Assembly (NCBI GenBank): GCA_020741375.1
Contig: DYZF01000278.1
Location: 1-10,655 of the forward strand
DNA from: Tessaracoccus flavescens
Lineage (GTDB): Bacteria; Actinomycetota; Actinomycetes; Propionibacteriales; Propionibacteriaceae
Direction: 5' to 3'
Length of the DNA stretch: 10,655 bases
Position numbers and translations under genes: made by a program. Positions 325 to 10,655 of the stretch are shown one piece after another. How positions within the stretch are numbered: the first letter of the stretch is position 1; the number at the start of each line of letters is the position of its first letter. The notes under the pieces were generated by a model that was not told the DNA's origin, searched no databases, and was given only the letters and a program-made list of their open reading frames with translations.

Positions 325-2148
325 TCACGAGATGTATTGCGTCTGGAACGCCACGAGCAGCGCGGACTGCGCCTTGCCGACGATGCTGAACGCTTCGCGG
401 AGGTTGCGCCGTTCGAATTCGGAGAGTTCCTCGGGATTGATGTAGTTGTTCGGTTCGTGCCCGACCGCGACCAATCCGCCTTGGTGCTGCAGCCGTCGGT
501 AACCCAAGTACTCGTGCGCGTCGAGCAGGTTCTCCACCTCGGCGCCGTGCTCCGCCGCCGCCAGCAGCCGTCCCCGGGTGGACACCTGCGGCAAGCCCCA
601 GCGCAGGGCGTAGATGCGCGCGATGTCGACGATGGGGTTGATACCGCCGAGCTTGATGTCCAGGCGGTCGCGGTGTTCGCCCTTCTTCTCGACGACGAAG
701 CCGCGGAGGAAGCCGATCGGCACCTCGGCGTCGTTGGCGTGCTTGGCCAGATGGCCGAGGAAGCGCGACGACGACGGTGCCGAGCGCAGCACGCGCTGCT
801 GGAGGGCCGTGAAGAGGGTTTGATCGCCATAGATGGGGCGCATGTCGAAGAAGATCGACGAGTTCAGCACGGCCTCCGACGTGGGCGCGCCCAGCCAGTT
901 GGAGAACTCCAACTGCCATTCGCTCAGCGGCTGCCGCCACGAGGGGTTGGTGGCCATCGCGTGGCCCTTGCAGCGGGGGAAGCCGCATTCCTCGAGCGAG
1001 GCCGTGATGAACTCGGCCAGATCCTCGAAGTACTGTGCGTGCTCGGGCTGGACGTCGTCGCTCAGGATCAGCGCGTGGTCCTGGTCTGAACCCAGCGCCT
1101 GCTCGTTGCGGGCCAGCGAGCCCAGAGCCACGAAGCAGTAGGGAACCGGGGGAGCGCCGAGCTTCGCCTCACCCATCTCGATCACGCGCTGGCACAGTGC
1201 CTCGGTGGTGCGGCTGACGATCCTGGTGATGTCTTCAGCGGTGGCGTCTTGCCGGAGCAGTCGGGCGACGAGCTTCGGCACTCGCTCCATGACGCGGGCC
1301 AAGCCGGCGATGTCGTCCTGCCGCGCCAGATCGCCGACGAGGTAGAGCGGGCTGGAGCGCTCGAGCCGCATGAGATCGCCCGAGGTGACCATGCCCAGCA
1401 CCTTTTCGCCGTCCATGACGGGGAGGTGGTGGATCTTGTTCTCCACCAACTTGAGCAGCACGTCGAGGGCCAAGGCATCCTTGTCGATGCGGAACGGATC
1501 GCGCGACATGGTTTCGGCCAGCGGTGAGCTGGGGGAGACGGAGCGGGCGACGACGCGACGCAGGTCGCGGTCTGTGAGGATGCCCACGAGCCGCTCGGCC
1601 TCGGTGACGAGGATCGCGGAGATGCGGTGCTCATCCATGGTTTGGGCGGCGTCGCCCACCGATGAATTCACGTCGATGGTGATGGGTTCGCGGGTGATCA
1701 TGTCGGAGACCGGCACCTGCAGGACGGGGCCGCCCTCGGGAACCGAGCGGGTGGCGTCGCTCAGGCGCGATTCGGTGAAGAAGCGGCGCACCTGTGGGTG
1801 GGCGACGAGTTCGCGCACCGTCTCCGGCGAGAAGGACCACAGCAGGGAGTCCTCGAGAGCCGTGAACGTGAAGCGGGAAGGGCGCTCCTCGATGATGGAG
1901 GACTGGCCGAAGCAGGTGCCCTTCTCGTCGTGATCCACCAGGTTGCCGTCGGCGTCGACGATCTCGATCGCGCCCGAGCGCACCAGATACATCGCCGTCG
2001 GTGCCGCGCCGGCGGACAGGACGACGTCGCCCCTCCGGACGTACTGGCCCACGGCTCGTTTGGCGAAACTGGCCACCTCGGCGGGCGGCAGCAGCGACCA
2101 CGGTTCGTAAGCGGAAAGAAACTGCGTCGTTTCAGCGAGCTCAGACAC
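325..2148 (-). CDS. cNMP-binding-like / CBS pair / DUF294 nucleotidyltransferase signalling protein
   Basis: A 607-residue protein with four regions. A Crp-like beta-barrel spans about residues 20-125. Two CBS motifs lie at about 148-200 and 210-262 (VSDMITREPITIDV, then ILTDRDLRR; MSRDPFRID, then MVTSGDLMRL). A DUF294 nucleotidyltransferase core spans about 330-400, with GSLARNEQALGSDQDHALIL at 343-362 carrying the G-S and D-x-D motif (Asp355, Asp357) of polymerase-beta-type transferases. A DUF294 C-terminal helical domain occupies about 440-590. The family resembles GlnD-like signalling transferases and is thought to link a small ligand, sensed by the barrel and CBS pair, to nucleotidyl transfer; the substrate is unknown. 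The barrel's phosphate loop reads CFGQSSIIEERPSR, with Gln where cAMP binders have Glu, so cAMP may not be the ligand. The start is GTG at 2148, with AAGGGGAT just upstream. The protein is cytoplasmic, with no membrane segments. The downstream exonuclease is in the same transcript. Confidence 0.9.
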   Translation of the reverse strand: MSELAETTQFLSAYEPWSLLPPAEVASFAKRAVGQYVRRGDVVLSAGAAPTAMYLVRSGAIEIVDADGNLVDHDEKGTCFGQSSIIEERPSRFTFTALEDSLLWSFSPETVRELVAHPQVRRFFTESRLSDATRSVPEGGPVLQVPVSDMITREPITIDVNSSVGDAAQTMDEHRISAILVTEAERLVGILTDRDLRRVVARSVSPSSPLAETMSRDPFRIDKDALALDVLLKLVENKIHHLPVMDGEKVLGMVTSGDLMRLERSSPLYLVGDLARQDDIAGLARVMERVPKLVARLLRQDATAEDITRIVSRTTEALCQRVIEMGEAKLGAPPVPYCFVALGSLARNEQALGSDQDHALILSDDVQPEHAQYFEDLAEFITASLEECGFPRCKGHAMATNPSWRQPLSEWQLEFSNWLGAPTSEAVLNSSIFFDMRPIYGDQTLFTALQQRVLRSAPSSSRFLGHLAKHANDAEVPIGFLRGFVVEKKGEHRDRLDIKLGGINPIVDIARIYALRWGLPQVSTRGRLLAAAEHGAEVENLLDAHEYLGYRRLQHQGGLVAVGHEPNNYINPEELSEFERRNLREAFSIVGKAQSALLVAFQTQYIS

Positions 2149-2430: not shown

Positions 2431-2516
2431 GCCTTCGAAAGAAGGCGATCTTACCTTGCGGCTGAGGGCGCGACACTCCCGACCTCGGGGGTCGGAGTGA
2501 CAAGGGGTTTTACCCC
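2431..2516 (+). promoter_or_regulatory. Structured 5' leader of the S10 operon (three hairpins)
   Basis: Three hairpins lie between the predicted transcription start and rpsJ. The first is GCCTTC-GAAA-GAAGGC at 2431-2446, a 6-bp stem closed by a GNRA tetraloop. The second is CACTCC(C)GACC with GGTCGGAGTG at 2474-2499, 10 pairs with one bulged C and a 5-base loop. The third is GGGG-TTTTA-CCCC at 2504-2516. In E. coli, L4 represses its own operon through an S10 leader. I do not recognise this leader as that element, so an autoregulatory role is an inference from position and structure. Confidence 0.45.
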
Positions 2517-2559
2517 GCAGGAACTTGAAATTTCCAAAGGGCTAGAAGTAAGGAACGAC

Positions 2560-2871
2560 GTGGCTGGACAAAAGATCCGCATCAGGCTGCGGGCGTATGA
2601 CCATGAGGTCATCGACAGCTCGGCGCGCAAGATCGTCGACACCGTGACTCGCACGGGTGCCAAGGTGGCCGGCCCGGTGCCGCTGCCAACCGAGAAGAAC
2701 GTGTTCTGTGTGATCCGTTCACCCCATAAGTACAAGGACAGCCGCGAGCACTTTGAGATGCGCACGCACAAGCGTCTGATCGACATCCTCGACCCCACGC
2801 CGAAGACTGTTGATTCGCTGATGCGCCTCGATCTGCCTGCGGGTGTCGACATCGAGATCAAGCTTCCGTGA
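2560..2871 (+). CDS. rpsJ: 30S ribosomal protein S10
   Basis: The 103-residue product has the full S10 signature: [20 protein letters not shown] near the N-terminus, [20 protein letters not shown] in the middle, and the RTHKRLIDI segment. S10 sits in the head of the 30S subunit and, as NusE, also joins transcription antitermination complexes with NusB. The start is GTG at 2560, with AAGGA 5 bases upstream; translation from here gives the normal family length, whereas the upstream in-frame GTG at 2428 would add 44 unrelated residues. It is the first gene of the S10 operon. Its stop lies just before rplC, and the GAGG ribosome site of rplC overlaps the stop. Confidence 0.97.
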
Positions 2872-2882
2872 GGTCTGTGAAG

Positions 2883-3536
2883 ATGAACGAACGAATTGTG
2901 AAGGGCATCCTGGGCACCAAGCTCGGCATGACCCAGCTCTGGGACGAGAACAACAAGATCGTCCCCGTCACCGTGATCCAGGCTGGCCCGTGCGTTGTCA
3001 CGCAGGTCCGCACCCCCGAGGTTGACGGCTACAACGCTGTCCAGCTCGGTTTCGGCGCCGTCAAGGCCAAGAAGGTCACCAAGCCGGAGGCCGGGCACTT
3101 CGCCAAGGCCGACGTCACCCCCCGCAAGCACCTCGTTGAGCTGCGCACCGCTAACGCCTCCGAGTTCGAGCTCGGCCAGGAGCTGACCGCCGAAGTCTTC
3201 GCCGATGGCGACGTCGTCGACGTGACCGGCACCTCCAAGGGCAAGGGCACCGCCGGTGTCATGAAGCGTCACGGCTTCCACGGCCTCCGCGCCTCGCACG
3301 GTGTGCACCGCAAGCACCGTTCCCCCGGTTCCATCGGTGGCTGCGCGACCCCCGGTCGCGTGTTCAAGGGCCTCCGCATGGCTGGCCGCATGGGCAACGA
3401 GAAGATCACTGTCCAGAACCTCCAGATCCACGCCGTCGACGCTGAGCGCGGCCTGCTGCTCGTCCGCGGTGCGGTCCCGGGCAACAACGGCTCGCTCGTC
3501 GTCGTCCGGAGCGCAGCTAAGAAGGGTGCTATCTGA
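2883..3536 (+). CDS. rplC: 50S ribosomal protein L3
   Basis: The 217-residue product starts [21 protein letters not shown] after MNERI and carries the L3 core motifs [16 protein letters not shown] and [14 protein letters not shown], which reach the peptidyl-transferase centre. L3 is an early assembly protein of the 50S subunit that binds the 3' end of 23S rRNA. I chose the ATG at 2883 because it matches family length and has GTGAGG 9 bases upstream; an in-frame GTG at 2868 overlaps the rpsJ stop and would add five residues. The gene ends in TGA, whose last base is the first base of the rplD ATG, so rplC and rplD are probably translationally coupled. Confidence 0.95.
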
Positions 3537-4579
3537 TGAGCGACCTGACCGTTGACGTCGTCGACGCCAAGGGCAAGAAGGCCGGCAAGGCCGAGCTTCC
3601 CGAGGCTCTGTTCGACGCGCAGACCAACATCCCGCTGATCCACCAGGTTGTCGTCGCGCAGCTCGCTGCCGCCCGTCAGGGCACCCACGACACCAAGACC
3701 CGTGGCGAAGTCCGCGGCGGTGGCATCAAGCCGTGGCGCCAGAAGGGCACCGGCCGTGCACGTCACGGCTCGCGTCGCTCGCCGATCTGGACCGGCGGTG
3801 GCACTGTCCACGGCCCGACGCCGCGTGACTACTCCCAGCGCACCCCCAAGAAGATGATTGCGGCCGCTCTCCGTGGCGCCCTGTCGGACCGCGCCCGTGA
3901 GGGCCAGGTCTTCGTCATCTCGGAGATCGTCGCTGGCGACAAGCCCTCCACCAAGGCCGCTCTGGCCGCGCTCACCGCTGTTGCCGGTGACGTGAGCAAG
4001 GTGCTCGTCGTGCTGGATCGCTTCGAGGACGTCGCGTGGCTGTCGCTGCGCAACGCCGCCGACGTGCACGCCCTGGCCGTTGACCAGCTCAACACCTACG
4101 ACGTGCTCGCCAACGACAAGATCGTCTTCACCTCGGCTGCTCTGGCCGCGTTCGTCGCGGGCCCCGCCTCCGGCAAGTCCGCCAAGGCCGTCGCCACCTC
4201 GTCCGAGGCCGACGCCGAAGAGGCTGTTGTCAAGGCTGCTCCGGCCGCCAAGGCTCCCGCCGCCAAGGAAGAGGCTCCGGCCAAGCTCAAGGCTGCCCCG
4301 AAGGCTGAGCAGGAGAAGGCCGCCGAGGCTGCTCCCGCCAAGCTCGCCGAGGTCTCCGATGAGGCCGACGCCGAGCCCGTCGATGGCGTCTACCGCGGCG
4401 AGAAGCCGCCGGCTGGCTACGACATCAAGGGCAACGAGGATTCGGGCAAGTACCACACGCCTGACTCGCCGTGGTACGGCCGCACCATCGCCGAGGTGTG
4501 GTTCAACTCCACCGAGGCTGCTGAGGCTGCTGGCTTCGTCGCGGCCGTCGCACCGAAGTCTGAGGAGGACGACAAGTGA
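3536..4579 (+). CDS. rplD: 50S ribosomal protein L4 with long C-terminal extension
   Basis: Residues 1 to about 207 are a complete L4. They include the extended loop [20 protein letters not shown] (57-76) that lines the peptide exit tunnel, and the C-terminal fold ending [11 protein letters not shown]4 helps assemble the 50S subunit and in E. coli also represses the S10 operon. The product is 347 residues, against about 205-220 for typical L4. Residues 208-292 are a low-complexity Ala/Lys/Pro/Glu linker. Residues 293-347 form a small separate domain with [18 protein letters not shown] and [18 protein letters not shown]. No frameshift or stop separates the parts, and codon use stays the same throughout, so the extension appears genuine. 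The ATG at 3536 overlaps the rplC stop; GAAGGG lies 9 bases upstream. The acidic tail codons (GAGGAGGACGAC) also supply the ribosome site for rplW. Confidence 0.95.
4157..4576 (+). other. L4 extension: AKPE-rich linker plus small C-terminal domain
   Basis: The linker (about 4157-4411) contains repeated Ala-Pro-Ala-Lys-type units such as [18 protein letters not shown], so it is probably disordered and mixed in charge. The terminal domain (about 4412-4576) has the pattern IKGN-x5-YHTPxSxWY-x4-AEVWF-x5-EAAGF. This matches a short motif that I recall from actinobacterial proteins, including the ends of some ribosomal proteins, and that I believe is labelled a 'sunset' domain in some databases. 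It resembles the YHxPxCxxY motif attached to some nucleases, but with Ser (311) in place of Cys, so metal binding looks unlikely. Function is unknown; the family name is from memory and unverified. Confidence 0.7.
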
Positions 4580-4887
4580 GCACCGCGCTGAAGATCCGCG
4601 ACCACCGCGACGTGATTCTGCGTCCCGTGGTGAGCGAGAAGAGCTACAACCTGCTCGACGACGGCAAGTACACGTTCATCGTCGCGCCGGAGGCCAACAA
4701 GACCGAGATCAAGATCGCCATCGAGGCCATCTTCGACGTCAAGGTCACCTCCGTGAACACCATCAACCGTCAGGGCAAGCGCCGTCGGACCCGCTACGGG
4801 TACGGCAAGAAGGTCGACACCAAGCGTGCGATCATCACTGTCGCTGAGGGCCAGAGCATCGACATCTTCGGAGGCCCGGTCAACTGA
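4576..4887 (+). CDS. rplW: 50S ribosomal protein L23
   Basis: The 103-residue product has the L23 features [21 protein letters not shown] near the start, the [22 protein letters not shown] helix-strand segment, and a basic loop [14 protein letters not shown]23 lies at the exit of the peptide tunnel, where trigger factor and the signal recognition particle dock. The start is GTG at 4576 in a GTGA overlap with the rplD stop, and GAGGAGG inside the rplD tail codons serves as ribosome site, so translation is probably coupled to L4. It is followed by 33 bases before rplB. Confidence 0.96.
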
Positions 4888-4920
4888 CCGGCGAGCCGCT
4901 GAGAGAAGGAACGAACACTC

Positions 4921-5757
4921 ATGGGTATCCGTAAGTACAAGCCGACTACGCCGGGCCGTCGTGGCTCCAGCGTGTCCGACTTCGTTGAACTCACGCGCTC
5001 GACTCCGGAGAAGTCTCTCCTGGTGTCGAAGCCGAAGACCGGCGGTCGCAACAACACCGGACGCATCACCACGCGTCACATCGGTGGCGGCCACAAGCAG
5101 GCCTACCGCATCATCGACTTCAAGCGCTACGACAAGGACGGCGTGCCGGCCAAGGTCGCTCACATCGAGTACGACCCGAACCGCACCGCTCGGATCGCGT
5201 TGCTGCACTACTTCGATGGCGAGAAGCGCTACATCATCGCCCCCAACGGCCTGACCCAGGGCACTGTGGTCTCGGCCGGCGAAGGCTCCGACATCAAGCC
5301 GGGTAACAACCTCGAGCTGCGTCAGATCCCCGTCGGTACGACCGTCCACGCCGTGGAACTGCGTCCCGGTGGCGGTGCGAAGCTCGGCCGTTCGGCCGGC
5401 GCTTCGATCCAGCTGGTCGCTCGTGAAGGCAAGTACGCCACCCTGCGCATGCCCTCGGGCGAAATGCGCATGGTCGACGTCCGCTGCCGCGCAACCATCG
5501 GCACTGTCGGCAACGCCGAGCAGTCCAACATCAACTGGGGCAAGGCCGGCCGCAACCGCTGGAAGGGCATCCGCCCGACCGTCCGCGGTGTCGTGATGAA
5601 CCCCGTCGACCACCCGCACGGTGGTGGCGAGGGCCGCACGTCCGGTGGTCGTCACCCCGTGTCGCCGTGGGGCAAGCCTGAGGGCCGTACCCGCGACAAG
5701 AACAAGGCGAGCAACCGTCTTATCGTCCGTCGTCGCAAGACCGGCAAGAAGCGCTGA
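4921..5757 (+). CDS. rplB: 50S ribosomal protein L2
   Basis: At 278 residues this is the normal L2 length. It shows the RNA-binding OB and SH3-like domains, with [19 protein letters not shown] at 42-60. It ends with the conserved [20 protein letters not shown] segment (226-244), which includes the histidine near the peptidyl-transferase centre that corresponds to E. coli His229 (here His231). L2 is needed for subunit association and peptidyl transfer. The ATG at 4921 is preceded by AGAAGGA at 10 bases. The gene ends in tandem stops TGA TAG, and rpsS follows after 18 bases. Confidence 0.97.
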
Positions 5758-5775
5758 TAGGGAGCCTGAGGAACA

Positions 5776-6057
5776 ATGCCACGCAGCCTGAAGAAGGGCC
5801 CCTTCGTCGACGACCACCTGTTCAAGAAGGTGGAAGTTCAGAACGAAAAGGGCACCAAGAACGTCATCCGCACCTGGTCGCGCCGCTCGATGATCATCCC
5901 CGACATGCTGGGGCACACCATCGCGGTGCACGACGGTCGCAAGCATGTCCCGGTGTTCGTCACCGAGTCCATGATCGGTCACAAGCTGGGCGAGTTCGCT
6001 CCGACGCGTACCTTCAAGGGTCACGTGAAGGACGACAAGAAGGCCCGCCGCCGCTGA
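5776..6057 (+). CDS. rpsS: 30S ribosomal protein S19
   Basis: The 93-residue product begins [18 protein letters not shown] after Met and carries the S19 signature [21 protein letters not shown]19 forms a complex with S13 in the 30S head near the A site. The start ATG has GAGGAACA just upstream. Length and sequence are ordinary for the family, and the basic tail KDDKKARRR is complete. There are 27 bases before rplV. Confidence 0.97.
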
Positions 6058-6084
6058 GGCGCGAGATAAGGAACTGATTCAACT

Positions 6085-6486
6085 ATGAGCAACGAGAACG
6101 GCAACAGCCGTCGTCGCGAGGCCCTCCTGGGCGATCGCGACGGCTCGTACGCCATCGCGCGTCACGTCCGCATGAGCCCCACAAAGGTTCGTCGCGTCAT
6201 CGACCTCGTCCGCGGCATGGACGTCAAGGACGCCCTTGTCGCCCTCAAGTTCGCCCCGCAGGCCGCTTCCGAGCCGGTCTACAAGGTCGTGGCCTCGGCC
6301 GTGGCCAACGCGGAGACGGCAGAGGGCATGCGCGCTGATGACCTGTACATCTCCAAGGCGTTCGTCGACGAGGGTGTCACCCTCCGACGGATCCGCCCCA
6401 GGGCCAAGGGATCGGCCAGCCGCATCCTGAAGCGCGGCTCGCACATCACCGTGGTCGTCGAACCTCGCGAGACGAAGGGAGCCTGA
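6085..6486 (+). CDS. rplV: 50S ribosomal protein L22
   Basis: The 133-residue product has a short polar N-terminal tail (about 20 residues, common in actinobacterial L22). The L22 core follows: [20 protein letters not shown], then the long beta-hairpin [20 protein letters not shown] that reaches into the exit tunnel, where macrolide-resistance changes map in other species. The hairpin looks wild-type in outline, with no insertion or deletion that I can see. The ATG at 6085 has AAGGAA about 11 bases upstream. rpsC starts 3 bases after the stop codon. Confidence 0.96.
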
Positions 6487-6488
6487 CA

Positions 6489-7298
6489 ATGGGCCAGAAG
6501 ATCAACCCGAACGGCTTCCGCCTCGGCATCACCACCGACCACACCTCTCGTTGGTACAGCGACAAGCAGTACTCGGAGTATGTCGGTGAGGATGTCAAGA
6601 TCCGTGAGTACCTGACCAAGACCCTCGAGCGCGCAGGCATCTCGTCCATCGAGATCGAGCGTCGCTCCGAGCGCGTGACCATCTTCCTGCACGCCGCCCG
6701 CCCGGGCATCGTCATCGGCCGCAACGGCGCCGAGGCGGAGCGCGTCCCCGCCGAGCTCGAGAAGCTCACCGGCAAGCAGGTTCAGCTGAACATCCTCGAG
6801 GTCAAGAACCCCGAGATCGACGCTCAGCTGGTCGCCCAGGGCATCGCCGAGCAGCTCGGCGCCCGTGTCGCCTTCCGTCGCGCCATGCGCAAGGCCCAGC
6901 AGACCGCCATGCGTGCGGGCGCAAAGGGTATCCGCATCAAGTGCTCCGGTCGTCTCGGCGGCGCCGAGATGTCGCGCTCCGAGGGTTACCGCGATGGCCA
7001 GGTGCCGCTGCACACCCTCCGCGCCGACATCGACTACGGCTTCTACGAGGCCCGCACCACCTTCGGCCGCATCGGCGTCAAGGTGTGGATCTACAAGGGA
7101 GACGTGGCAGGCACCCGCGCCGAGCGTGCAGCCCAGAAGGCCGCCCGCAACAACGCGCCGTCCGGTCGTCAGCGTCCGGGCCGTCGTCCGGCCCGCGGCG
7201 ACCGTGGAGATCGTCCCGAGCGCGGCGGTCGCCGTCGCGCCGACGCAGCCCAGGCCGAGGCCCCGGCTGCGCCCGCAACTGAGAACGCAGGAGCATAA
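6489..7298 (+). CDS. rpsC: 30S ribosomal protein S3
   Basis: The 269-residue product begins [17 protein letters not shown], the S3 start. It has a type II KH domain with the GxxG loop [12 protein letters not shown] (about 74-85), then [15 protein letters not shown] and the C-terminal domain [15 protein letters not shown] through [15 protein letters not shown]3 lines the mRNA entry channel. Residues 211-269 form an Arg/Gly-rich, then Ala-rich tail, as is usual in actinobacteria. Two positions differ from the typical KH sequence: Asn79 (often Arg) in GxxG, and Pro87, where relatives usually have Arg in a helix. AAGGGAG lies 7 bases before the ATG. The stop TAA precedes rplP by 3 bases. Confidence 0.96.
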
Positions 7299-7301
7299 GT
7301 C

Positions 7302-7721
7302 ATGCTGATTCCTCGTCGAGTTAAGTTCCGTAAGCAGCACCACCCCAAGCGGGACGGCGCTGCCAAGGGCGGCACGAAGCTGGCCTTCGGCGACTACGGC
7401 ATCCAGTCGCTGGAGTCCTCCTACCTGACCAACCGTCAGATCGAGGCAGCCCGTATCGCCATGACCCGTCACATCAAGCGTGGCGGTAAGGTCTGGATCA
7501 ACGTGTACCCGGACCGCCCCCTTACCAAGAAGCCGGCCGAGACCCGCATGGGTTCCGGCAAGGGCTCGCCCGAGTGGTGGGTCGCCAACATCAAGCCCGG
7601 ACGCGTCCTGTTCGAGCTCTCCGGCGTCCCCGAGGACGTTGCCCGCGAGGCAATGCGTCTGGCCATCCACAAGCTGCCCTTCAAGGCACGCTTCATCAAG
7701 CGCGAAGCAGGTGACAACTGA
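7302..7721 (+). CDS. rplP: 50S ribosomal protein L16
   Basis: The 139-residue product begins [17 protein letters not shown] and contains the L16 signatures [20 protein letters not shown] and [21 protein letters not shown]16 organises the A-site tRNA region and the base of the L7/L12 stalk on 23S rRNA. Family length is normal. The ATG at 7302 has AGGAG 8 bases upstream, within the end of rpsC. The stop TGA shares its A with the ATG of rpmC (TGATG), so these two genes are likely translationally coupled. Confidence 0.97.
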
Positions 7722-7954
7722 TGAGTAAGTCTCTCGCCGCACACGACCTTCGTGGTCTGTCGCGTGATCAGCTCAACGCAAAGGTCGTTGAGCTGAAGGA
7801 GGAACTGTTCGGTCTTCGCTTCCAGGCGGCCACCGGCCAGCTGGAGTCGAGCAGCCGTCTGCGCAACGTGCGTAAGGACATCGCCCGCATCTACACCGTG
7901 CTGCAGGAGCGCAACCTCGGCATCGTGGACGAGCCCGCCGTTGAGGAGAAGTGA
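7721..7954 (+). CDS. rpmC: 50S ribosomal protein L29
   Basis: A 77-residue product with the two-helix L29 fold: [20 protein letters not shown], then the conserved [28 protein letters not shown] region. It has a short acidic tail (DEPAVEEK). L29 sits next to L23 at the tunnel exit. The start overlaps the rplP stop. Codons for the acidic tail (GAGGAGA) supply the ribosome site for rpsQ, the same arrangement as at rplD/rplW. Confidence 0.96.
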
Positions 7955-7956
7955 AC

Positions 7957-8235
7957 ATGAGCGAAGAGATCACCACCACTGAAGAGCGCAACCGTCGCAA
8001 GGTCCTCCAGGGCGTTGTCGTGTCCGACAAGATGGACAAGACGATCGTCGTGCTGGTCGAAGACCGCGTGAAGCACCCGCTCTACGGCAAGGTCATGACC
8101 AAGTCGGAGCGCCTGAAGGCCCACGACGAGAACAACGAAGCCGGCATCGGCGACCGCGTTCGCGTCATGGAGACCCGGCCCCTGTCGGCGCAGAAGCGCT
8201 GGCGCCTGGTCGAGATCATCGAGCGCGCCAAGTAA
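7957..8235 (+). CDS. rpsQ: 30S ribosomal protein S17
   Basis: The 92-residue product has the OB-fold of S17: [40 protein letters not shown] and [21 protein letters not shown]17 is a primary 16S rRNA binder in the body of the 30S subunit. I chose the ATG at 7957 because GAGGAGA at 7943-7949 is ideally spaced. A GTG at 7951 overlapping the rpmC stop would add two residues and is possible but less likely. It is the last gene of this operon, with a terminator 12 bases after its stop. rplN, which follows rpsQ in many bacteria, is absent. Confidence 0.96.
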
Positions 8236-8246
8236 GGCACCTTTTC

Positions 8247-8280
8247 GAGCGGCCCGTCCCTTTCAGGGGCGGGCCGCTTC
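8247..8280 (+). terminator. Intrinsic terminator of the S10 operon
   Basis: AGCGGCCCGTCCC at 8248-8260 pairs with GGGGCGGGCCGCT at 8266-8278 over 13 bases with one G-T wobble and a 5-base loop (TTTCA). The tract after it (TCGTCGTGTCGT) is only weakly T-rich, as is common in high-GC actinobacteria. It lies 12 bases after the rpsQ stop. The opposite strand has no T-tract after the hairpin, so it probably acts only on the S10 transcript. Confidence 0.85.
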
Positions 8281-8337
8281 GTCGTGTCGTGGGCTGACGC
8301 TCGTGGACGCGAGTCCGGACCCCCGCAGCTCTACGGC

Positions 8338-8486
8338 TCAGGCAGTCGGGGCGAGCCCGACGGAGCCGCGGCGGGCCAGTTCGACGGGGAGGCGGACCTC
8401 GGCGGCGCCTCAGCGCCGGAGATCTGCGCGAGCAGCGCGTCGACCGCGGCCTTTGCCTTCGCCGGACTGTCCTGGCGCACCGGCGT
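8338..8486 (-). pseudogene. C-terminal remnant of a LacI-family transcriptional repressor (frameshifted)
   Basis: On the minus strand, 8486 to about 8401 reads TPVRQDSPAKAKAAVDALL followed by AQISGAEAPP. After a one-base shift near 8401-8406 it continues EVRLPVELARRGSVGLAPTA and stops at 8338-8340. Together these match the end of LacI/GalR-family sugar repressors, where a VRQ segment is followed by a helix, then a V-LP-EL-RGS tail and stop. Only about 50 of some 330 residues remain: the DNA-binding domain and most of the sugar-binding domain are missing, and the frame is broken, so this is not functional. Family assignment is by motif memory; a similarity search would settle it. Confidence 0.65.
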
Positions 8487-8595
8487 GTTTCTCGCGGCGC
8501 TCGCCATCGCCACCCTGATCCCGGTCGCGCTCTTCCTCGCCTTCCAGCGCCTGTTCCTGAGCGGAGCCGGGCTCGGCGGGGCCGTGAAGGGCTGA
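8482..8595 (+). pseudogene. C-terminal remnant of a carbohydrate ABC transporter permease (CUT1/MalG type)
   Basis: The plus strand encodes GVFLAALAIATLIPVALFLA followed by FQRLFLSGAGLGGAVKG and a stop at 8593-8595. This is the typical end of MalG-like sugar permeases: a last membrane helix with a proline, then a FQR-F--G---GAVKG tail and stop. About 37 residues remain of some 280; the EAA loop and other helices are absent. The frame is open back to 8284, but upstream of about 8482 it is merely antisense to the LacI remnant. It ends 2 bases before the stop of the leftward holin-family gene. Confidence 0.65.
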
Positions 8596-8597
8596 GG

Positions 8598-8987
8598 TCA
8601 GCTGCGCGACTTCTCCTTGTCGACGTTCAGCAGGCCGCCGAGCAGCGAGCCGACGATCGAGATCACGATCGAGCCGAACAGGGCGGGCCAGAAACCGTCG
8701 ACGTGGAAGCCGAGACCGAACTGGGTCGAGAGCCAGGAGGTAAGCAGCAGCATCAGGGCGTTGATCACGAGCAGGAACAACCCGAGCGTCAGCACGACGA
8801 AGCAGGTGCTCACGACGGTGACGACGGGCTTGACGATGGCGTTGACCACGCCGAAGATCAGGGCGACCACGAGCAGCGTGATCACCTTGTCGCTCGTGTC
8901 GGCCGCGGTGAGATCGATGCCCGGGATGAGCCAGACGGCGGCGGCGGTGGCGATGGCGGTGACGATGAGCCGGGTGAGGAACTTCAT
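8598..8987 (-). CDS. Phage holin family protein (YvlD-like four-helix membrane protein)
   Basis: A 129-residue hydrophobic protein with four likely membrane helices at about residues 5-23, 35-53, 58-86 and 99-121. It ends in a short charged tail (NVDKEKSRS). The segment FGVVNAIVKPVV and the following long helix TLGLFLLVINALMLLL match the chromosomal phage-holin/YvlD family (Pfam PF04020 as I recall), which is widespread in bacteria and mostly uncharacterised. It need not come from a phage; no phage genes are nearby. I chose the ATG at 8987 because MKFLTRL is a typical family start; the open frame extends to 9050, but that addition is polar and not family-like. The ribosome site is poor (GGAAG one base before ATG). 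Confidence 0.85.
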   Translation of the reverse strand: MKFLTRLIVTAIATAAAVWLIPGIDLTAADTSDKVITLLVVALIFGVVNAIVKPVVTVVSTCFVVLTLGLFLLVINALMLLLTSWLSTQFGLGFHVDGFWPALFGSIVISIVGSLLGGLLNVDKEKSRS

Positions 8988-9020
8988 GCTTCCAGCATGC
9001 CAGCCGGCCAGTGGCTGCAC

Positions 9021-9039
9021 CTCAGGGGACGGCCCTGAG
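9021..9039. repeat. 7-bp inverted repeat in the holin / ABC divergent region (possible operator)
   Basis: CTCAGGG at 9021-9027 and CCCTGAG at 9033-9039 form a perfect inverted repeat with a 5-base spacer. On the minus strand it begins directly at a good -35-like TTGACT (plus positions 9038-9043), so it would lie between -35 and -10 of a promoter for the holin-family gene. I see no convincing -10 for that promoter. It could be a repressor site or an RNA hairpin in the leader. Confidence 0.4.
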
Positions 9040-9064
9040 TCAACCCCCATCCGGGGCTCGACCG

Positions 9065-9091
9065 TTGGCCTCCGGGGGCCCGACGTAGGAT
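9065..9091 (+). promoter_or_regulatory. Candidate promoter of the ABC transporter gene
   Basis: TTGGCC at 9065-9070 and TAGGAT at 9086-9091 are separated by 15 bases. The -10 is a good TAnnnT match; the -35 is partial and the spacing is slightly short. Transcription would start near 9098, about 45 bases before the GTG start codon. Confidence 0.35.
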
Positions 9092-9142
9092 TGCGTGGGC
9101 TCAGCCGACCCGGACCCGCGAGCCGAAGAGAGGGGGTACCAG

Positions 9143-10655
9143 GTGCTGCAACTCAGCGAGGTGCGCAAGTCCTACACGACGGGCGACTTCACGCAGGTCG
9201 CGCTCGATGACGTGTCGATCAGCTTCCGCGACAACGAGTTCGTGGCCATCCTCGGTCCCTCCGGTTCGGGCAAGACCACCCTGCTCAATGTCGTCGGCGG
9301 GCTCGACCACTACGACTCGGGAAACCTCGTCATCGACGGTGTGGAGACCTCCCGCTACCGCGACCGTGACTGGGACACCTACCGCAACAACCGGATCGGG
9401 TTCGTCTTCCAGAGCTACAACCTGATCCCGCACCAGACTGTGCTCGCCAACGTCGAGCTGGCCCTCACCCTCGCGGGCGTCTCGCCCGCGGAACGCAGGC
9501 GACGGGCGGTCGAGGCGCTCGAGCAGGTGGGCCTCGGCGACCACGTCCACAAGCGACCGAACCAGCTGTCAGGCGGGCAGATGCAGCGCGTCGCCATCGC
9601 CCGCGCGCTGATCAACGACCCGGAGATCCTGCTCGCGGACGAGCCGACCGGTGCGCTCGACTCGCACACAAGCGTCCAGATCATGGGCTTGCTGACCAGC
9701 ATCGCCCAGGACCGGCTTGTCATCATGGTCACCCACAATCCGGAGCTGGCCGAGGAGTACGCGACCCGGATCGTGCAGCTTCGCGACGGCGTCGTGTCCT
9801 CAGACAGCGACCCGTTCGTCCCCGATGACGCCGCCCAGGAGGAGAGATCGCAGGCACGGCGCACCTCGATGTCCTTCCTGACGGCGATAGCCCTGTCGTT
9901 CAACAACCTGATGACGAAGAAGGGTCGCACCCTGATGACGTCGTTCGCGGGCAGCATCGGCATCATCGGGATCGCCGCCATCCTCGCCCTCGCCAACGGC
10001 GTCAACGCCTACATCAAGGGGGTCGAGGAGGACACCCTCTCGATGTACCCGCTCACCATCGAGAGCCAGGGGTTCGACATCGGCTCGATGCTCGCCGCCT
10101 CTGCCGGGCTGATGGACGGCGGCTCCGATGAAGGCAGCACGCCCGAGGGTGACGTGCACGAGGTGCAACTGCTCTCCACCATGTTCGACGGCATCGGCAC
10201 CAATGACCTCCGCTCGCTGAAGACCTACCTCGACGGCGACGGGGGAGGGATCGACTCCTCGGTCAACTCGATCCAGTACTCCTATGACGTCACGCCGCAG
10301 ATCTTCGCCTCCGACGTCAGCGCCGGGGTGCGCCAGGTCAACCCCGACACCACCATGTCCTCGCTCGGCCTCGCGCCCTCGGGGGCTGGGGGATCGCTGC
10401 TCGGCTCGGCGGGAAGCTCGAGCGTCTTCTCCGAACTCGTCGACGACCTCTCCCTCGTCGACACCCAGTACGACGTCAAGGCGGGCCGCTGGCCGACCGG
10501 CCCCGACGAGACCGTCGTCGTGCTCAGCAACAACGGAGGCATCTCCGACCTCGCGCTCTACGCCATGGGCCTTCGCGACTCCGCCGAACTCGACGAGATG
10601 GTCAGGCAGGTCGTCAACGAAGAGGAGGTGAGCACCCCTGAAGAGGCGCTCGGCT
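9143..10655 (+). CDS. ABC transporter, fused ATP-binding and permease protein, MacB-like (3' end off the window)
   Basis: From the GTG at 9143 (GAGAGGGGG ends 6 bases upstream) 504 codons are open to the right edge. Residues 1 to about 220 are an ABC ATPase: Walker A GPSGSGKT (38-45), Q-loop Gln90, signature LSGGQ (142-146), Walker B ILLADE (162-167), and H-loop His198. The PTGALDS segment and the LolD/MacB-like overall sequence place it with the MacB/LolD/FtsE class. After a polar linker comes SFNNLMTKKGRTLMTSFAGS and a first membrane helix (about 265-288), then an outside domain rich in Ser, Gly and Asp, resembling a MacB periplasmic core. The remaining FtsX-like helices lie beyond the window. 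This class usually moves peptides or lipids, or acts mechanically, rather than importing solutes. The substrate cannot be told from the sequence. Confidence 0.9.
   Translation, partial: MLQLSEVRKSYTTGDFTQVALDDVSISFRDNEFVAILGPSGSGKTTLLNVVGGLDHYDSGNLVIDGVETSRYRDRDWDTYRNNRIGFVFQSYNLIPHQTVLANVELALTLAGVSPAERRRRAVEALEQVGLGDHVHKRPNQLSGGQMQRVAIARALINDPEILLADEPTGALDSHTSVQIMGLLTSIAQDRLVIMVTHNPELAEEYATRIVQLRDGVVSSDSDPFVPDDAAQEERSQARRTSMSFLTAIALSFNNLMTKKGRTLMTSFAGSIGIIGIAAILALANGVNAYIKGVEEDTLSMYPLTIESQGFDIGSMLAASAGLMDGGSDEGSTPEGDVHEVQLLSTMFDGIGTNDLRSLKTYLDGDGGGIDSSVNSIQYSYDVTPQIFASDVSAGVRQVNPDTTMSSLGLAPSGAGGSLLGSAGSSSVFSELVDDLSLVDTQYDVKAGRWPTGPDETVVVLSNNGGISDLALYAMGLRDSAELDEMVRQVVNEEEVSTPEEALG

Follow-up and report, generated by a model that had tools for sequence, protein, structure and literature searches.

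We suggest with high confidence that the slot between rpsQ and a Phage_holin_4_2 family gene carries the scar of a lacI / GH13 / sugar ABC transporter locus, most of which was removed by one deletion of ~5.9 kb. The analysed DNA (10,655 nucleotides, hereafter the window) is an entire contig from a bin of 296 contigs and 2.26 Mb, with an estimated completeness of 85% and contamination of 4.75%; those relatives in its genus that bear names belong to Tessaracoccus (Propionibacteriaceae). The slot is 362 bases long. The two remnants within it, which are joined directly, show homology to the two outer ends of a single locus, lacI on one side and the last permease gene of a sugar ABC transporter on the other. 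The scar is ordinary gene loss. Its parts and flanks are listed in the table.

Table. Annotated features of the rpsQ–holin slot and its flanks in the window
Feature	Position	Strand	Basis or comment
rpsQ (S17)	7951..8235	+	Left flank of the slot; open frame, 98% to T. flavescens
GC-rich hairpin 3′ of rpsQ	8246..8281	+	Putative terminator
103-codon frame spanning the scar (lacI antisense and malG tail)	8284..8595	+	Read as a chance frame
~50-base segment between hairpin and lacI stop	8286..8337	.	Common to the window and T. flavescens
lacI remnant, last ~47 codons	8338..8480	-	blastn/tblastn; frameshift near 8391-8412
Deletion junction	8478..8484	.	Alignment to G029, G016 and G008
malG remnant, last 37 codons and stop	8482..8595	+	Similarity to the C-terminus of MalG-type permeases
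Phage_holin_4_2 family membrane protein gene	8598..8987	-	Right flank of the slot; PF04020, E 1e-28

Two gene tails and their junction

The lacI remnant has its stop codon at 8340-8338 of the minus strand and extends to ~8480 in two frames, separated by a one-base frameshift. In blastn, window positions 8337-8477 match the lacI gene of genome G029 with 77% identity over 144 columns (E 1e-16). In tblastn the LacI of T. defluvii (G016) matches with 59% across 34 residues and 79% across 19 (E 2e-11) and that of G029 with 75% across 24 and 71% across 21 (E 3e-9), each time in two frames. On the other side, the malG part and the holin gene form one continuous blastn match (80% over 531). With the 103-codon frame as query, a search of ~5.8 billion proteins returns 21 proteins, three of which span the junction (P0001-P0003), while 18 are partial matches covering 35-40% of the query at 72-92% (best E 1.8e-10). 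A source names 8 of these 18 as multiple sugar transport system permeases, 11 carry PF00528, and in the two that were inspected (P0004 and P0013) the match is located in the permease tail.

Pfam alone is insufficient to reveal the remnants, since the tails are too short for a call. The hand-joined LacI tail gives Peripla_BP_3 as its best match (E 0.0025, 18.3 bits) below the cut-off of 26.5, the 42-residue malG tail has no Pfam match, and the 103-codon frame gives only Phage_holin_2_2, also below cut-off (E 0.14).

Hence, the translated search proposed in the earlier note bears out three of its claims, namely a LacI-type tail on the minus strand ending at 8338 (E 1e-16 to 3e-9 in blastn and tblastn), a MalG-type permease tail on the plus strand ending at 8595, and an extra frameshift within the LacI part. 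The tails also meet directly, as had been stated; the meeting point, however, was put at 8482-8486, and the LacI-like and MalG-like similarities change over within 8477-8482. The letters at the junction are CAC-C-GGCGTG. In the relatives the lacI side has GAC or GAT and then GGT or CGT, and the malG side has CTC or CTG and then GGG or GGC, which leaves at most about three bases of possible microhomology. We infer that the ends were joined by an illegitimate event with little or no homology.

The hairpin behind rpsQ is the probable terminator of this gene. A T-run terminator scan reports no terminator for it; a GC-rich inverted repeat, similar by eye, is found at the equivalent position in G029, G016 and G008. 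The last three genomes have only a few to ~20 bases where the window has the ~50-base segment. Among seven sequences compared, this segment has no match longer than 14 bases except to itself and the T. flavescens copy. It folds into a second hairpin.

The undeleted locus and its loss in Tessaracoccus

Besides the window's, ten rpsQ–holin slots were fetched and read; in the remaining genomes of the genus the coordinates show these two genes to be absent, not next to each other or located on different contigs. In three of the ten (G029, G016 and G008) the slot holds a ~6-kb locus of lacI and, divergent from it, a GH13 alpha-glucosidase gene, a binding-protein gene and two permease genes, so that the undeleted arrangement anticipated by the earlier note exists at this very place. 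The T. defluvii copy comprises lacI on the minus strand (336 aa), GH13 (550 aa), a binding protein (475 aa; SBP_bac_8 and SBP_bac_1), malF and malG. The best solved-structure matches of its GH13 protein are the alpha-glucosidases 8yif and 8yie (~515 bits), and the substrate of the lost locus was presumably an alpha-glucoside. The earlier list of lost parts (the N-terminus of the repressor, the binding protein and the permeases) is thus correct and incomplete, as the GH13 gene was lost too.

All five genes are present in the three reference loci, and in none of them are all five open as assembled. Frameshifts split genes of the locus in G008 (L064), G029 (L062) and G016 (L063): malF is broken in G029 and G016, malG is broken in G016 and, close to its end, also in G029, and in G008 lacI, GH13, the binding-protein gene, malG and rpsQ are all split. 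We suspect consensus errors of long reads here, since rpsQ itself is affected in G008. The locus is 83.5% identical between G008 and G016 and 78-79% identical between either of them and G029. These values depart from the tree of the ribosomal genes, and the locus may have been exchanged between species.

Relatives of the locus LacI and binding protein at ≥79% identity occur only in these three of the 39 genomes of the genus. The T. flavescens genome (G020; two contigs, estimated 100% complete) has no such relative of either protein, and the best LacI in it or in the window's bin is 33% identical. Relocation of the locus was considered and rejected, as neither T. flavescens nor the bin has a match to the binding protein at E 1e-20; of the two, T. 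flavescens is the telling one, because the bin is 85% complete and consists mostly of another species.

Among the fetched slots, only that of T. flavescens has the same scar, with identical junction, frameshift and ~50-base segment. Aligned with the locus ends of G029, G016 and G008, the window lacks 5880, 5867 and 5859 bases, respectively, and this concordance supports a single deletion of ~5.9 kb. The junction residues SWRTGVF recur in the proteins P0002 and P0003, which lack the frameshift of the window; the middle of their lacI part is in the frame that fits unshifted lacI, and P0002 is shifted closer to the lacI stop. Both are known as protein sequences only, P0002 from a contig of 1025 bases. 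As the junction is common to them and the frameshift is not, the frameshift probably came after the deletion. Judged from these sequences, the deletion probably occurred first and separate frameshifts followed, in line with the decay of the LacI part proposed in the earlier note.

The other slots differ. That of T. bendigoensis (G011, L066) is ~100 bases long and those of G021 and G034 are ~260 bases; none of the three has a lacI or malG match in blastn at E 1e-3. In the slots of G032, G038 and C206, a contig from the window's bin (L069, L070 and L071), a frame of 224, 225 and 216 codons, respectively, stands in place of the sugar locus; the three frames are hydrophobic and similar by eye, and blastn detects neither lacI nor malG in these slots. 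In a tree of the S10 genes (2692 DNA columns, 16 rows) the window and T. flavescens group together at 100/100 and form a clade with G029, G008 and G011 at 99/98, while G016 falls outside that clade with moderate support (82/83). By hand count, one gain and two losses (the scar and T. bendigoensis) are shorter than separate gains, so the undeleted locus appears to be ancestral to the scar. The short slot of T. bendigoensis is then probably a second, scarless loss, given the locus in its tree neighbour G008.

We infer that the locus went in one event. A stepwise loss, by separate deletions or excision of an insertion sequence with the present junction as the last step only, is very unlikely. Nothing speaks for it positively, though the ~50-base segment lies next to the lacI stop and T. 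bendigoensis offers a short slot with no detected scar; against it, both outer genes are kept to their stop codons and directly joined, and no mobile-element sequence was seen in reading the 362 bases of the slot. One internal deletion suffices for the junction shared with T. flavescens, the closest relative, as the earlier note had supposed.

The 103-codon frame and the mosaic contig

The T. flavescens annotation lists the frame spanning the scar as BW733_03010. When the window is compared with T. flavescens, 8 replacement and 2 silent changes are counted in this frame, whereas eight neighbours (rpsS, rplV, rpsC, rplP, rpmC, rpsQ, the holin gene and part of an ABC gene) together have 7 replacement and 25 silent changes in the same pair (Fisher p 0.0016, from 10 scar changes in one genome pair, 6 of which cluster in 8490-8520 and may not be independent). 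The scar frame is compatible with neutral evolution (p 0.74), which is rejected for the neighbours (p 4e-10). Hence, the remnant shows no sign of constraint and seems to evolve without it.

It is highly improbable that the frame is a young real gene, comparable to a fusion born by deletion. The frame does stay open at the same length in the window, T. flavescens and P0002, and P0002 and the window reach this length although their lacI parts are shifted at different places; moreover, deletion-born fusions are described across bacteria in a preprint (PMC12803068). However, neither donor gene contributes the start of the frame, its first half is antisense lacI, and the counts of replacement and silent changes are those of neutral drift. 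At a GC content of 74%, 1199 of 5000 letter shuffles of the stretch are likewise open. The rpsQ hairpin lies directly upstream, and a simple sigma-70 scan of 8200-9150 finds no promoter-like site. That the frame is translated and being kept, for which one could point to its nearly unchanged MalG membrane-helix tail, has likewise very little probability. The database protein BW733_03010 is therefore probably an artefact of the deletion and not a real gene, which matters for its annotation; the earlier note had called the 103-residue frame from 8284 an artefact of the fusion, and the frame is present with nothing that points to a protein under constraint.

The contig itself joins two species. 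From 5679 to 10655 it is ~99% identical to T. flavescens (47 listed differing positions), from 2501 to 5500 the identity is 84-94% per 250 bases, and for no part of 100-2331 does the T. flavescens genome offer a match at E 1e-3; the jump from 84-94% to ~99% lies inside rplB, at 5553-5679. The other bin contigs share 66-84% identity with two T. flavescens stretches, 17.5 and 15 kb long, in pieces of more than 300 bases; conversely, the long matching pieces between T. flavescens and parts of two bin contigs are 67-85% identical. Contig C206 of the same bin contains a second S10 end and rpsQ–holin region, without the scar. By these identities, the sampled other contigs of the bin are assigned to another species, and the right part of the window probably comes from a T. 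flavescens-like strain through misassembly in rplB, or possibly through real recombination there. At the left end (325-2148, minus strand) a cNMP-binding / CBS / DUF294 nucleotidyltransferase gene stands upstream of the S10 operon; genes of this kind lie no more than ~10 kb from S10 in several genomes, G019 and G031 among them, and T. flavescens has no match to it.

That the junction is an assembly artefact has next to no probability, for although the contig is a mosaic elsewhere, the scar lies entirely in the right part with the mosaic boundary at least ~2.7 kb away, and the same junction in a 3.6-Mb T. flavescens contig, with 9 of the 258 scar positions differing, rules it out.

Proposed history and comparison with known systems

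We suggest the following course of events for the single deletion. The ancestor of a Tessaracoccus subclade would have carried a lacI-regulated locus for alpha-glucoside uptake between rpsQ and the holin-family gene, with lacI on the minus strand and the GH13 alpha-glucosidase, binding protein, MalF and MalG on the plus strand. A single internal deletion of ~5.9 kb would then have occurred in the lineage to which T. flavescens and the right part of the window belong. By T. defluvii numbering, its lacI breakpoint would lie near codon 289 of 336, with 289 through the stop codon preserved and now abutting the final 37 malG codons. Lost with the deleted DNA would be the repressor's DNA-binding domain, the control region and the hydrolase, along with almost the whole transporter. 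What was left, presumably unused as a protein, would since have drifted, and the frameshift in lacI would have arisen after the deletion. The locus, the scar and a scarless absence coexist in one slot within one genus, which makes this a clean example of operon loss.

In bacteria, pseudogene remnants of internal deletions consist of the joined outer ends of genes, which then undergo point decay and frameshift. The scar is of the same kind; here the remnants point outward and do not make a coding fusion of both genes. Our search of the literature for Tessaracoccus pseudogenes, LacI remnants and BW733 locus tags found no published report of this scar in the library covered.

Confirmed spontaneous rearrangements in Salmonella are reported to have short repeats at their ends (PMC3411829); in contrast to these, short terminal repeats are not evident at this scar. 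Deletion-born fusion genes, as presented by Kaul et al. (2026 preprint, PMC12803068), join the beginning of one frame to the end of a second one. The scar resembles them in that a deletion yields a new open frame that is listed in databases as a protein. It differs from the fusions described there in its pieces, both of which are 3′ ends, with the lacI piece antisense to the frame, so that the frame is no such start-to-end fusion.

Last but not least, the lost locus has the gene order of lacI / GH13 alpha-glucosidase / CUT1 loci of Propionibacteriaceae. Each of the three loci examined in other genera has GH13, binding protein, malF and malG in this order. Only one of them also shows a divergent relative of this lacI, namely that of G187, whose LacI and GH13 are 72% and 64% identical to those of T. 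defluvii and whose MalG is 74% identical to that of G029; the LacI of G177 is 30% identical, and in G229 the contig ends. Compared with these loci, the window keeps the two tails only.
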